Shown piece by piece: positions 2,943 to 40,510 of a stretch of 40,510 bases of DNA. Positions within the stretch are counted from its first letter, which is position 1. Every line of letters begins with the position of its first letter. A model generated the notes under the pieces. It was not told where the DNA came from, searched no databases, and saw only the letters and a program-made list of their open reading frames with translations. The position numbers were made by a program, and so were the translations under genes. This stretch comes from a virus: IMG/VR virus record IMGVR_UViG_3300032523_000245, positions 1-40,510 of that record, one strand, 5' to 3'.

Positions 2943-3373
2943 TGAATAGCATCATAGATTCTGTTCTGTCTATGAATTTAGATGTTTACAGACAGTCTGA
3001 AATTCAAGACGCAGATACTGGAGCACTTGTAAAAGAATTTAATTATTATAAGACCATAGCCTGTCATGCCAAGGGAATTATTAGCAATACATCCTCTTTA
3101 ATTGGTGGGGGAAACAAGCAAAGCTTTTCTAACAAATATGCAGACGAACAGGTTATTCAAGTAAGAACAGCAGAAAAACTAACCGCTAGAGAAAAAGTTA
3201 CTAACATCAGAGATGCAGATAATAATGTAATCTGGAATGAAATAAACTACCCCAGCGACACCCCAACCGTTTTTGAAGTAATGGGAACAACTCCTATCAT
3301 AGATCCATTTGGTCGTGTAATAGCCTACAACTCTTCTATGAAAAGATCGGAGAACCAGAAAATTGGACTATAG
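2942..3373 (+). CDS. Probable head-closure (stopper) protein
   Basis: A 143-residue beta-rich protein beginning at a TAATG overlap with the adaptor gene. Size, order (adaptor, stopper, neck protein, terminator) and the small-barrel appearance match the head-completion or stopper proteins that close the connector after packaging. No catalytic motif is seen. The assignment rests mainly on position and is an inference; the residues themselves do not identify a family to me. Confidence 0.55.
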   Translation: MNSIIDSVLSMNLDVYRQSEIQDADTGALVKEFNYYKTIACHAKGIISNTSSLIGGGNKQSFSNKYADEQVIQVRTAEKLTAREKVTNIRDADNNVIWNEINYPSDTPTVFEVMGTTPIIDPFGRVIAYNSSMKRSENQKIGL

Positions 3374-4151
3374 CAAACCTTTACTCCAAGCAGCCAGTAG
3401 CCTTGAAAGGTTAATGATTGGAAGCGGACAAAACAATCACATAAAGGATAGTAATGTGGCTCAGATATCTGCTGCAATTTATTACCAAGCAAATGTGATA
3501 GCTAAATTAACTTCAAGCAAAAAGTTTAAAGACAAATTTAAGTCTGTTATATTTTCTCAAATATTAAAGGATTTTGGAAACTATGTAGACTCTCAGGCTA
3601 GATCTAAACCTAGGGCTCTTCATCACATGTATGAGTGGAAAAGAACTGGAGACGCTGACGCCAGACTTTTTGATTTAAAGATGATTGATGGTCAGGGCAT
3701 TTCTTTTAAAATAAGATATGACTATAAAAACTCTACATCTTTTGTTCCGACCAAGGAAAGCAAGAGAAAGCACGTTTTTGTAAGTAAGGCGTCTATCATG
3801 GAAGCTGGGATGCCTCTAAAAATCGCTCCACGCCATTCTGAGAGGCTAGTATTTGAATCTGATGGTATTACAGTCTTTATGCCTAAAGGGGCCTCAGTGA
3901 CCGTACAGAGGCCTGGAGGAAGCGGTGTAATGAATCAGTTTAAGATAAGACACAGCATATTCTTTAGAGGTCAATTAGTTAATCAATCTATTAAGTCTTC
4001 TGGGTTTCAAAAGATATTTAATTCTTCTCTTACTAAAGCACTTAAATTACCCCCTTCAATTAAAAAGGTTCAGTATTCATTCAGCGCAAATTCAATTAGG
4101 TCTATGGCGGACTCATCAGTAGAATCAGCATTTGGAGGTTCAATGATATGA
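3363..4151 (+). CDS. Neck or tail-completion protein, unassigned family
   Basis: A 262-residue basic protein starting at TTG 3363, which overlaps the previous gene by 11 bases; GGAG at 3349-3352 supports this start. It has an N-terminal helical part (~1-80) and a middle section rich in aromatic, H and K residues (HHMYEW, ~86-91; KRKHVFV). The place in the operon is that of HK97 gp10-type neck proteins, but it is nearly twice their usual length. Structural role is inferred from order only. Confidence 0.55.
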   Translation: MDYSKPLLQAASSLERLMIGSGQNNHIKDSNVAQISAAIYYQANVIAKLTSSKKFKDKFKSVIFSQILKDFGNYVDSQARSKPRALHHMYEWKRTGDADARLFDLKMIDGQGISFKIRYDYKNSTSFVPTKESKRKHVFVSKASIMEAGMPLKIAPRHSERLVFESDGITVFMPKGASVTVQRPGGSGVMNQFKIRHSIFFRGQLVNQSIKSSGFQKIFNSSLTKALKLPPSIKKVQYSFSANSIRSMADSSVESAFGGSMI

Positions 4152-4660
4152 CAGCTAACTATAAATTAGATGCAATGCTAGAACTTAGAAAGTTTTTATG
4201 GAGCAGTCTAAAAACCGCAGGCATATTTGATGACGAAGATTATTATAGCGATAATCTAAATGAAAGCATAGTTCCAATTATTCCAGTTCAACAGGCAGCA
4301 GAAATGAATCAATTCTTAAGCGGTAAAAAGCATATCGTCTATGACAAGATAGGAATGTCATATGAGGACAACTGGGCAATATGTTGCGAACAGATGCTCT
4401 TCACCATATATGCTACTGAGATTTCAGATATAAATGAGATTAGAAACTTTATGACAGATCAATTTAGAAGAATGGATGATTCAGCTAGAGACGTAAATCA
4501 ATTTGCAACCCTATCTAACAAGTTTAGGTTTCACAGCATCTTTATAGCAGACATCTCCCCAACAGAGCCTTCCGAGGAAATCCAGGGGTTCTTTTCAGCA
4601 GATGTCATACTTGAGGTCAAATACTCTAGGGTATTGGACTCCGTAGGCAGATTTTTGTAA
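4148..4660 (+). CDS. Probable tail terminator protein
   Basis: A 170-residue alpha/beta protein starting in a 4-base ATGA overlap. Its length, acidic nature and position immediately before the major tail protein match tail terminator (tail-completion) proteins, which cap the tail tube and join it to the neck. Segments W-A-I-C-C-E-Q-M-L-F-T-I-Y-A and F-F-S-A-D-V-I-L-E-V-K-Y would be the paired beta strands of that fold. No decisive motif; the call is contextual. Confidence 0.6.
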   Translation: MTANYKLDAMLELRKFLWSSLKTAGIFDDEDYYSDNLNESIVPIIPVQQAAEMNQFLSGKKHIVYDKIGMSYEDNWAICCEQMLFTIYATEISDINEIRNFMTDQFRRMDDSARDVNQFATLSNKFRFHSIFIADISPTEPSEEIQGFFSADVILEVKYSRVLDSVGRFL

Positions 4661-37975: not shown

Positions 37976-38308
37976 ATGTTTGAAGATGAGTATGAGGACG
38001 AGCAAGACGGACAGGATCTTTCTGTCTACATGGAAATGGGAGTCATAGAGTTAGAAGGAATGGACGAAAACGGAGAAGCAATTTTCTCTATAAACGAAAG
38101 CGCTAAAATTTTAGCCCCACACTTATGGCAATCTCATATAGACTATGTAGATAAATCTTTAATAGAATTATACGAAGCTGGTTTAGTTAAGGTTGAGTAC
38201 AACGAAGACTTAGAGGCAACCTTTCTTTTGTCCCCAGAAGGACACGCCCTTGCAAAAGAAAAGGGACTAATTGAAATGGATATTAATAGGAATATTCCGA
38301 ACGACTAA
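37976..38308 (+). CDS. Winged-helix-like acidic protein
   Basis: I start at ATG 37976 (110 residues), with GAAGG six bases upstream and a TATAAT before it; an in-frame ATG at 37907 lies inside the previous gene and upstream of the promoter. The N-terminal ~40 residues are acidic (E-D-E-Y-E-D-E-Q-D). The rest, H-I-D-Y-V-D-K-S-L-I-E-L-Y-E-A-G-L-V-K-V then F-L-L-S-P-E-G-H-A-L-A, resembles a winged helix whose 'wing' is L-V-K-V-E-Y. Could be a regulator or DNA mimic; function not shown. Confidence 0.65.
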   Translation: MFEDEYEDEQDGQDLSVYMEMGVIELEGMDENGEAIFSINESAKILAPHLWQSHIDYVDKSLIELYEAGLVKVEYNEDLEATFLLSPEGHALAKEKGLIEMDINRNIPND

Positions 38309-38334
38309 AAAAGACCAAGAGAACAAAAAAATAG

Positions 38335-38340
38335 TATAAT
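38335..38340 (+). promoter_or_regulatory. -10 box for the structured RNA and nuclease
   Basis: TATAAT ends three bases before the first stem of the structured RNA, so the RNA would start at about 38346-38348, within the 5' arm. The -35 is weak: AAGACC at 38311-38316 (18-base spacing). Confidence 0.6.
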
Positions 38341-38343
38341 AAG

Positions 38344-38426
38344 AACCTGCACCCCTTCATCGGGGAGTCGCAGGTTATTCGGGTCGCTACCCGAAGGATG
38401 GACCTGAGTACGTCCGCAAACTGCTC
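38344..38426 (+). ncRNA. Structured RNA or leader element, unassigned
   Basis: An 83-base stretch with 49 G/C in an AT-rich genome and no reading frame. Stems: AACCTGC 38344-38350 with GCAGGTT 38370-38376, enclosing CCCC 38352-38355 / GGGG 38362-38365; TTCGGGT 38378-38384 with ACCCGAA 38389-38395 (loop CGCT); GGAC 38400-38403 with GTCC 38412-38415. The first loop, UCAUC 38357-38361, can pair with GAUGG 38397-38401, a possible pseudoknot. A -10 box precedes it and the nuclease gene follows 21 bases later. No match to a riboswitch or tRNA I know. It is either a cis-acting leader or a small RNA. Confidence 0.72.
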
Positions 38427-38447
38427 ATTTAAAATTTAAGGAGAGTT

Positions 38448-38855
38448 ATGTTCGAGTACAGAGTTAAACAAATTACAAAGGTAGTAGACGGAGACACTAT
38501 TGATGTTGATATTGATTTAGGATTTAGTATTTCTTACTCTCAAAGATTAAGATTAGCTGGCATAGATACACCAGAATCTAGAACAACAGATAAGCTTGAA
38601 AAAACTTTAGGCCTTGAATCAAAAGAGTATCTTAAGTCTAAATTTAAAAATGCTGTATCAATAATTGTAAAAACAGAAAAGCCAGACAGTACAGAGAAGT
38701 ACGGTCGTATTCTTGGATGGGTATACCTTGATGGAAATACAAAGTCTGTTAATGAACAAATGATTGAAGACGGATACGCCTGGGGATACATGGGCGAAAC
38801 TAAGGTTAAAGACTTTGTAGCCTTAGCAGAAAAGAGAAAGAAGAGCGGTAAATAG
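38448..38855 (+). CDS. Staphylococcal-type (thermonuclease) nuclease
   Basis: A 135-residue SNase with all key residues: D21, R35, D40, E43 and R87, the same numbers as in mature staphylococcal nuclease, in V-D-G-D-T-I-D-V-D, L-R-L-A-G-I-D-T-P-E and Y-G-R-I-L-G. It cuts DNA and RNA with calcium. No signal peptide, so it acts in the cell or is packaged; host DNA breakdown or end processing are plausible. AAGGAG at 38438-38443 gives the start. It lies behind a structured leader and is coupled to an FmdB-type protein. Confidence 0.92.
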   Translation: MFEYRVKQITKVVDGDTIDVDIDLGFSISYSQRLRLAGIDTPESRTTDKLEKTLGLESKEYLKSKFKNAVSIIVKTEKPDSTEKYGRILGWVYLDGNTKSVNEQMIEDGYAWGYMGETKVKDFVALAEKRKKSGK

Positions 38856-39108: not shown

Positions 39109-40510
39109 TTGAGTAGAAAGATAAAATTATTTCTGGCTGGCCTGTTTGTAACTGGTTGGCTATTTTTTATAGGCCCAACTTATGCGTGGGCGACAGAGCA
39201 AGGCGGACAAGAACAAGTAGTAGTAAGTCCAGCGCAAGTGGCGGTAAATACAACCATTGCAACAGCCACCACTGAAGTTGCACAAGCAGTATCAGCATCA
39301 GAGTCTGCAACTGCAATAATTGCAACTGCGGTTCAAGCAGTAACAACATCTAACACGGCCGTATCAGCAGCAAACACTGCAGTCACTGCAGCAACTATTG
39401 CGGTAGCAGAAGTTCCTTTGCTTATAGAAACAGCAACTACTTTAATTCAATCAGCACAAACATCAGTAGAGTCAACCGCAGCAACTGTATCGGCAGCAAA
39501 TACTGCGGTGGTAGCAGTATCTCCAGCCCTAGCAGAGGCTCAAACACAATTAACTCAGGCAAACGTTGCAATTAATACTGCTCAAGATGCAGTAAATGAT
39601 TTGGTAGCTACAGTTGGCACAACATCAAATGTTTTAGCAAATACAGATGACGCAGGAATTCTTATGAATTTACCATTTAATTTACAATTAGGTGGAGTTA
39701 CATATTCAAATGTTTATGTTAGTTCTAATGCAACAATAACTTTTGGTGTCAATGAAGGACAAAACTACTCTTCTACACCTAATGCTCCTTCAATTTCTGT
39801 GGCAGGTTACGATTGGACTACGTGGAGCAATGGCTCTGGTATTACTTATTCAACAACAACTAACACCCTGTCTATTGCTTGGGATGTTCGTGTATTTCCT
39901 TTAACAACAGCAGAAACACAGATGACTCAAATTAGATTTAATGCAGATGTAAATCCATCAGACAGTGCTTGGTCAGCAGACATAAGTGTTACTGGACCAA
40001 TACCAAACGGAACAAGATTCAACGTAAGAGAAGTTGCTGGCGGAGCAATAACTAATACTCCAGATACAAATGCTGGTTCTGGATATAACGCAACAATTAG
40101 TCAAGGCGCTGCATTTATCCCTACCCCCGATCCAGACAATGCAACGGTATTGGCAGCAATTGATACAGCAAATGCACAAATTGCTGCGTTAAACTCAGCA
40201 ATTACAGCAGTTGTTGCAACAAATACAGCAAATACAAATACAGCTATTGCACCAATAGCAACTGTTTCACAAAATATTTTAACTGCATTATCGACAGCAG
40301 CTACATTCTTAGCCACAAAGTTAGCAGAGGTAGCACCGCCATCTTTGGTTTATACTGCACCAACACCACCTGAGCCACCCGCAGAAGAGCCACCAGTAGT
40401 AGAGCCACCCGCAGAAGAGCCACCAGTAGTAGAGCCACCCGCAGAAGAGCCACCAGTAATAGAGCCACCTGCAGAAGAGCCACCAGTAATAGAGCCACCT
40501 GCAGAAGAGC
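39109..40510 (+). CDS. Secreted Ala/Thr-rich protein with proline repeats (3' truncated by window edge)
   Basis: The frame is open from TTG 39109 to the window end (467 residues seen). GGAG six bases upstream supports the TTG. Residues 1-28 are a signal peptide: basic S-R-K-I-K, a hydrophobic stretch, and A-W-A before T29. Residues ~30-185 and ~345-405 are alanine/threonine-rich with N-T-A-V repeats and look helical. Residues ~187-340 form a beta-sandwich with Y-S-N-V-Y-V-S-S-N-A-T-I-T-F-G, similar in style to nidogen-like modules. The end is a run of P-P-A-E-E-P-P-V-V-E repeats suited to span a wall. It may act at the host surface; the missing C-terminus is needed to tell. Confidence 0.78.
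   Translation, partial: MSRKIKLFLAGLFVTGWLFFIGPTYAWATEQGGQEQVVVSPAQVAVNTTIATATTEVAQAVSASESATAIIATAVQAVTTSNTAVSAANTAVTAATIAVAEVPLLIETATTLIQSAQTSVESTAATVSAANTAVVAVSPALAEAQTQLTQANVAINTAQDAVNDLVATVGTTSNVLANTDDAGILMNLPFNLQLGGVTYSNVYVSSNATITFGVNEGQNYSSTPNAPSISVAGYDWTTWSNGSGITYSTTTNTLSIAWDVRVFPLTTAETQMTQIRFNADVNPSDSAWSADISVTGPIPNGTRFNVREVAGGAITNTPDTNAGSGYNATISQGAAFIPTPDPDNATVLAAIDTANAQIAALNSAITAVVATNTANTNTAIAPIATVSQNILTALSTAATFLATKLAEVAPPSLVYTAPTPPEPPAEEPPVVEPPAEEPPVVEPPAEEPPVIEPPAEEPPVIEPPAEE
40375..40510 (+). repeat. 30-base coding tandem repeat (PPAEEPPVVE)
   Basis: Four full 30-base units at 40375, 40405, 40435 and 40465, and a partial fifth at 40495 cut by the window end. Units differ at two sites: CCC to CCT (silent) and GTA to ATA (V to I), showing recent duplication with a gradient along the array. 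Confidence 0.95.

Follow-up and report, generated by a model that had tools for sequence, protein, structure and literature searches.

The window analysed here, a viral record of 40,510 bases, carries capsid, tape-measure, DnaE-like and RecA-like genes and, near its end, an SNase gene. The leader between the SNase gene and an upstream uncharacterised ORF (ending at 38308) is G+C-rich, with 49 G/C in the 83 nt at 38346-38428, exactly as an earlier sequence-only reading of this DNA had counted, while the window overall has 37.2% G+C; at least 49 G/C are reached by 41 of the 40,428 overlapping 83-nt windows of the record. The folding energy of 38330-38450 is -38.1 kcal/mol (shuffled mean -27.81, z -2.98), a value reached by none of 200 dinucleotide shuffles. 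The three stems described in that reading are present, namely AACCTGC/GCAGGTT with CCCC/GGGG (hairpin A), TTCGGGT/ACCCGAA (hairpin B) and GGAC/GTCC (P1 of the core), as is its TATAAT, and its statement that no terminator follows the leader agrees with the position of the nearest downstream terminator-like site on the + strand, at 39823. A tRNA/tmRNA search found none and Rfam 15 returned no match in the window at gathering score; at E<=10 just two Rfam matches to the window element appeared, both eukaryotic and implausible. The features of the locus are as follows.

38335..38340, + strand: -10 box TATAAT, read from the sequence; conserved before hairpin A and the core in relatives
38344-38350 x 38370-38376, with inner CCCC/GGGG 38352-38355 x 38362-38365, + strand: hairpin A, the 5'-terminal hairpin of the leader
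38378..38395, + strand: hairpin B, TTCGGGT-CGCT-ACCCGAA; other hairpins substitute for it in some relatives
38400-38426, + strand: core H-type pseudoknot of 27 nt, from covariation, a free-position P2 test and a hold-out model
38400-38403 x 38412-38415, + strand: P1 of the core, GGAC/GUCC
38406-38410 x 38422-38426, + strand: P2 of the core, GAGUA/UGCUC
38404-38405, 38411 and 38416-38421, + strand: bridge CU, bridge C and loop GCAAAC of the core
38427..38439, + strand: G-free A/U tract of 13 bases running into the Shine-Dalgarno sequence, read from the sequence
38438..38443, + strand: Shine-Dalgarno sequence AAGGAG, read from the sequence; kept in the A2 leaders
38448..38855, + strand: SNase gene, 135 aa (Pfam SNase, E 1.3e-16)

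A transcript starting about 6-9 nt past the TATAAT would, judging from the sequence, begin at the foot of hairpin A. A sigma-70 consensus scan of the region returned 10 sites against 14.2 expected in shuffles and omitted the 38335 box owing to its lack of a good -35; the promoter assignment therefore rests on the conservation of the -10 box. Each of the 77 exact copies of hairpin A in the form found in the relatives has a TATAAT at most 24 nt upstream, and the core follows hairpin A in 71 of the 73 exact copies with enough sequence, the remaining two having a GGCTC variant of the P2 strand. Among the upstream sequences of SNase relatives (the best 80 of 589 from IMG/VR), hairpins A and B are exchangeable modules and the last stretch of the leader is constant, reading NNAC-CUGAGCAN-GUNN-NN-AAACUGCUC. 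Of 81 SNase starts (these best 80 relatives plus the window), 41 have the core at most 70 nt upstream, and at 39 of these a TATAAT is found 31-95 nt before the core.

The A2 alignment is restricted to 18 leaders selected for having hairpin A as well as hairpin B, and excludes those built from other modules. In these, 95.5% of the cells pair, and both sides change in 9 of 25 pairs (4.0 in shuffles, with none of 500 as high). The outer pairs of hairpin A covary while its inner letters are near-invariant, and double-sided change occurs at four of the six pairs counted in hairpin B. Compensating base changes, as opposed to drift alone, were thus what the homologues displayed. The loop-to-strand pseudoknot that had been proposed between 38357-38361 and 38397-38401 has to be abandoned, the 38360-38398 pair failing in 15 of the 18 rows; the conserved pseudoknot pairing is instead that of 38406-38410 with 38422-38426. 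Leader modules like those at the SNase gene also precede zinc-ribbon-like and P-loop kinase-like genes (by eye), and the core adjoins unrelated genes. Control of a toxic nuclease as the sole purpose of the leader is rejected because other genes follow the same leader. What stands of the sequence-only reading is therefore a structured RNA that follows a conserved -10 box, is oriented like the SNase gene and has compensatory changes in its stems; its pseudoknot and the nuclease-specific purpose are not supported, and the processed small RNA that it offered as an alternative would be a minor possibility.

In L028, L054, L174, L185, L193, L210 and L214 the gene upstream of the element ends in a ..KPKTIKIK-like sequence, which we take to resemble the tail of small heat-shock proteins, and the gene downstream varies (SNase, zinc-ribbon-like or kinase-like); these loci are a possible hot spot of gene exchange. 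In L015 and L033 the SNase gene is directly preceded by a 3' remnant of the element alone (..CTGCTC plus the A/U tract, by eye), which suggests recent deletion or recombination.

Fold and distribution of the core pseudoknot

The element consists of a 4-bp P1 of free sequence, an invariant CU, a 5-bp P2, one bridging base and an NN-AAAC loop. The loop GAGCA pairs with UGCUC in relatives, the window having the version GAGUA/UGCUC. For the A1 alignment, 147 sequences were taken from 223 non-redundant rows, these being the first 150 in order after removal of L228, L229 and L230 for poor pairing or a position within ORFs. Standard pairs occupy 97.3% of its pair cells (23-43% in slid controls), double-sided differences are found in 201 cells against 59.6 in shuffles and at all four P1 pairs, and the covariation score of 0.405 (0.109 in shuffles) was equalled in none of 500 shuffles. 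Neither the number of pairs with double changes (51 of 500 shuffles as high) nor the number of pair types (333 of 500) clearly exceeds shuffles. The initial exact-pattern scan fixes the C-G pair and one further P1 base in anchor hits, neighbouring copies in the loci not being selected in this way; without any demand on P1, at least three P1 pairs form at the expected place in 207 of 216 copies.

The regular expression used for A1 fixes most of P2, whose pairing there is by construction, and P2 was tested separately with free positions for this reason. Scanning IMG/VR with two positions per P2 strand free gave 19 new loci among the matches listed; both free pairs are complementary in 18 of these, as nine AA/TT, eight GG/CC and one GA/TC, the exception being CG/CC, and the third P1 pair is kept in all 19. 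Across all loci examined there are 27 linker-4 sites with P2 letters different from AG/CT, and 26 of these are complementary; by chance, two free standard pairs would be expected in about 14%. With the linker mis-set to 2-3 the sites were mixed, both helices being kept in 36 of 64 and the third P1 pair broken in 20 of 64. Individual variants include a 6-bp P2 (GAGCCA/UGGCUC) in a copy from a Rhizobium phage, and in the copies of two Chaseviridae phages the third P1 pair is a G-A mismatch. In 1.08 Mb of viral loci, most of which had been collected for bearing the motif, a relaxed structural pattern was found 155 times, and in five Markov-resampled sets not once. A hold-out model was built from 65 sequences (A3) hand-picked from L099-L236, none fetched via an SNase gene; the pair counts of A3 are not an independent sample, and the model's score for the window element is 40.4 bits (E 3.5e-12), the only hit in the window, which contains a single copy of the core. 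Many loci are related, and the counts given here do not represent independent events. The pseudoknot structure of the core is near certain.

The exact pattern was found in at least 120 stretches of IMG/VR and in 68 stretches of a genome collection (257 Gb by its description), some of the latter within ORFs, e.g. in Pseudomonas, and some in CRISPR spacers. Model R1 matched 23 of 25 records at E<=0.05, these having been chosen as known or suspected carriers, with up to seven matches per viral record. Seventeen named phage records were picked via BLAST hits, eight of their copies belonging to R1, and 12 of them score at least 36 bits: Roseobacter SIO1, Lentibacter ICBM2, Escherichia flopper, Erwinia Berlingot, the crAss-like cr7_1 and cr8_1, Lactobacillus phig1e and KC5a, Synechococcus S-H35 and S-RIM4, Mycobacterium Labelle and Paracoccus ParKuw1. 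Three (Bacillus Page, Silicibacter DSS3phi2 and Rhizobium Y65) match weakly and two (Lactococcus GE1 and Prevotella Lak-A1) have no R1 match. The carriers thus include phages of Alpha- and Gammaproteobacteria, Lactobacillus, Synechococcus and Mycobacterium, plus crAss-like phages; a search of E. coli genomes with one 30-nt query, a weak test, gave no match. Rfam 15 applied to 15 element-bearing loci returned just three tRNA and one tmRNA matches, elsewhere in those loci, and no match in the L003 leader. Among the titles listed in full-text searches of a PMC library none describes the element, though an unnamed prediction may exist elsewhere. The 38400-38426 segment is a member of a widespread, so far unnamed phage RNA element.

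The pseudoknot sequence also occurs in CRISPR arrays. Five of 139 spacers in one array of Ignavibacteria CP054675 (L511:754, 3770, 4883, 5024 and 7922) contain it, all in one orientation and with adjoining Cas1, Csm5 and Card1-like genes (type III), as does one of 119 spacers in another phylum (L288:924, Poribacteria OX639973). That such spacers might mark a discrete stable RNA acquired through a reverse-transcriptase Cas1 was considered and rejected, there being no RVT_1 match in that genome and the offsets varying.

Gene context and 3' tail of the element

Placement was assessed with crude gene calls (ORFs of at least 60 or 70 aa), and placement and tail counts include only copies with at least three P1 pairs, a filter absent from the 216-copy P1 count. 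Of the 208 elements in viral loci 17 overlap a gene call, and for the remaining 191 the next gene lies on the same strand in 157 cases and on the opposite strand in 19, none being called in 15. At control gene ends, counted where the gap is at least 50 nt, the neighbour is a same-strand gene in 667 cases and an opposite-strand gene in 321. Among 217 non-redundant elements the distance from the stop codon to the CUG is below 9 nt in three, 9 nt in 21 and 10 nt in 23, a sharp lower bound at 9-10 nt that often places the beginning of P1 5-6 nt past the stop. The mRNA entrance of a terminating ribosome would sit at about this point, and with such spacing the fold could therefore persist during ribosome termination. 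A called stop is found within 16 nt in 85 of the 217 elements and is not in 132. In same-strand gaps of at least 200 nt (63 elements), 22 lie within 16 nt of the stop against 1.7 expected under even placement, and none lies 8-24 nt ahead of the next start. The SNase group differs in that its core is near the start codon and tied to the promoter, not to a stop.

The element is not SNase-specific, its core adjoining unrelated genes in many phages, and it lies for the most part in the sense orientation between two genes of one strand. Some copies directly precede a tRNA, or a Shine-Dalgarno sequence and start codon (by eye), and transcription must therefore pass through them. In one large-contig group (L114, L144, L149, L173, L178, L186 and L196) inspection by eye places the copy only some bases ahead of a tRNA-like sequence, and Rfam confirms a tRNA in L178.

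The tail following P2 is poor in G, which in the viral copies occupies 1-7% at positions 1-7, 9% at position 8, 14% at position 9 and 23% at position 10; a tail with no G among its first nine bases was seen in 62.5% of the 208 elements, the figure for 951 control positions being 14.1%. C is not depleted, which would favour an unpaired tail over a merely weak RNA-DNA hybrid. The T content of the tail does not differ between elements with and without a gene soon after (3.49 and 3.48 of 9). A tRNA-like 3' end, with ACC after P2, was also considered and discarded, ACC starting just 28 of 217 tails.

Possible functions of the element

The reading preferred here, to which we accord somewhat less than an even chance, is that the element serves as a barrier to mRNA decay or processing at cistron boundaries, placed at the SNase gene in a promoter-proximal leader. 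The pseudoknot would constitute a mechanical barrier in the phage mRNA that requires no dedicated protein, would fold just outside the ribosome terminating the upstream gene, and would halt exonucleases moving 3'-to-5' from the tail, or 5'-to-3' where the host has such enzymes, and segments of a polycistronic phage message would then decay at differing rates. In the window, where the leader runs from hairpin A through hairpin B, the pseudoknot and the A/U tract to the Shine-Dalgarno sequence, the barrier would be built in, and may prolong the life of the SNase message or let the leader persist as a short RNA. The covariation in both helices, stop-linked placement, same-strand next genes and G-poor tail count for such a barrier, as do the copies through which transcription must pass and the predominance of UAA as the upstream stop (64 of 96 stop-adjacent cases). 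As the neighbouring genes are unrelated no single-gene explanation fits; together with the very different hosts they argue against one specific ligand, the spread across phages of such hosts favouring a universal partner or none. Against a barrier count the SNase group, tied to promoter and start codon and not to a stop, the avoidance of G in the tail, which an exonuclease block does not need, the resemblance of the U-rich subset to terminators and the 132 of 217 elements without a called stop within 16 nt. The terminator, readthrough and metabolite-sensor readings fit poorly, and as neither readthrough nor a general terminator placement is supported, a decay or processing barrier was adopted.

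A broader reading, possible if doubtful, is that this phage-enriched pseudoknot class across bacterial phyla represents a portable, host-independent mRNA barrier, i.e. a general exonuclease-resistant RNA of DNA phages that sits just outside the terminating ribosome and is joined to exchangeable hairpins in promoter leaders. An element of 27 nt that covaries strongly, occurs in multiple copies and in many phage lineages and has no Rfam 15 match would be a common, overlooked part of phage gene expression, and if it blocks decay it would provide a compact, host-independent mRNA stability part. Escherichia phage flopper, a coliphage grown on E. coli K-12, carries a copy.

It is unlikely that the element is a pseudoknot terminator or pause signal, folding in the RNA exit channel while the tail of about nine bases forms the RNA-DNA hybrid, with partial termination, a pause between cistrons or attenuation in the SNase leader as the outcome. 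The tail length is near that of the hybrid, TTTT occurs within 12 bases in 25% of 208 elements (7.6% of controls), and a few copies, e.g. L109 and L104, have a U-run and then a promoter-like site. Terminators should, however, favour junctions with an opposite-strand gene, which are scarce among the elements, and the 50 U-rich copies are unexceptional in this respect (48 same strand, 2 opposite). Nor is a downstream promoter-like site clearly linked to a U-richer tail (3.84 vs 3.39 T in 9, for 19 vs 176 elements), and the retention of C in the tail also speaks against a terminator. The G+C-rich stem with U-run of intrinsic terminators is seen in the U-rich subset only, whose members may be terminators; the window copy has no U-run and no terminator-like site is listed there.

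The best rival in anatomy for the SNase leader is, on the arrangement of its parts, a protein-bound translational operator of the T4 gene 32 type, in which a phage protein (e.g. SSB) would bind the pseudoknot and spread over the A/U tract and Shine-Dalgarno sequence; for the element as a whole this is quite unlikely. According to PMC3014915, the gene 32 mRNA leader of T4, T2 and RB69 has an H-type pseudoknot followed by a UUAA(A)-rich tract over the ribosome binding site, an order shared by the SNase leaders with their pseudoknot, UUUAAA-rich tract and Shine-Dalgarno sequence, the likeness being one of anatomy. A pseudoknot upstream of the ribosome binding site is found in the SNase leaders and is not general for the element, and A+U-rich repeats over the binding site are seen by eye in the SNase leaders only (AUUUAAAAUUUAAGGAG). 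Outside this group the element is linked to the upstream stop rather than the next start, the downstream genes are unrelated and some copies stand ahead of tRNAs. The gene 32 operator belongs to one gene of T4-type phages and is the target of the phage SSB, a repressor of its own gene, whereas the 27-nt core has unrelated genes as neighbours, in many cases follows a stop, occurs in up to seven copies per record, and in the window precedes an SNase rather than an SSB gene.

That the SNase leader is itself a small RNA, with the pseudoknot determining where it ends on the 3' side, appears very unlikely. The -10 box just before hairpin A, the core regularly following it and the exchange of modules as units would suit such an RNA, yet a Shine-Dalgarno sequence and start codon stand conserved close behind, no terminator-like site occurs before 39823, and copies without a promoter are left unexplained. 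A recoding or termination signal, with the fold stimulating stop-codon readthrough or acting otherwise on the terminating ribosome, is highly improbable: the 5-6 nt between stop and P1 is typical of recoding pseudoknots, but for readthrough, the one such activity examined, in-frame extensions of at least 20 codons follow 24 of 96 stops against 36% of 6,286 controls, and 64 of the 96 stop-adjacent cases have UAA as the stop codon.

Known counterparts and further leader modules

The exoribonuclease-resistant RNAs of RNA viruses, known from flaviviruses and plant RNA viruses and characterised by halting a processive exoribonuclease unaided by protein cofactors, are likewise compact viral pseudoknotted folds, whereas the present carriers are DNA phages and the exonuclease block is a proposal. 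The STAXI motif (RF01728) is, like the present element, a bacterial pseudoknot motif; PMC2864571 describes it as having an unknown function and as occurring in Enterobacteriales in 2-3 tandem repeats with UUCG loops. Its model gave no hit over cut-off on five element-bearing records (best 7.7 bits, cut-off 40.5). In the preQ1-I aptamer the loop of a short hairpin pairs with an A-rich tail, a design that the present element resembles; the latter differs in lacking an Rfam match and in being present many times per phage, next to genes that are unrelated.

A second leader module, AGTCGGGGGAGACAGCGACT..TTAAATAAC, was observed at L003:4921-4938 and in 12 other loci. A 29-base stretch similar to it (86%, E 0.6; L220:3387-3415) occurs in 33 phage records. 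All but two of the 33 are Escherichia phages (31), which in the cases seen belong to the Chaseviridae and carry the stretch about 0.9 kb from their pseudoknot. Escherichia phage flopper contains two stretches of about 1 kb without annotated genes (L220:1640-2860 and 3247-4224), in which the pseudoknot, the second module and tRNA-like pieces can be recognised by eye. The flopper pseudoknot is seemingly enclosed by a longer helix, GTAACCTAA/TTAGGTTGC.
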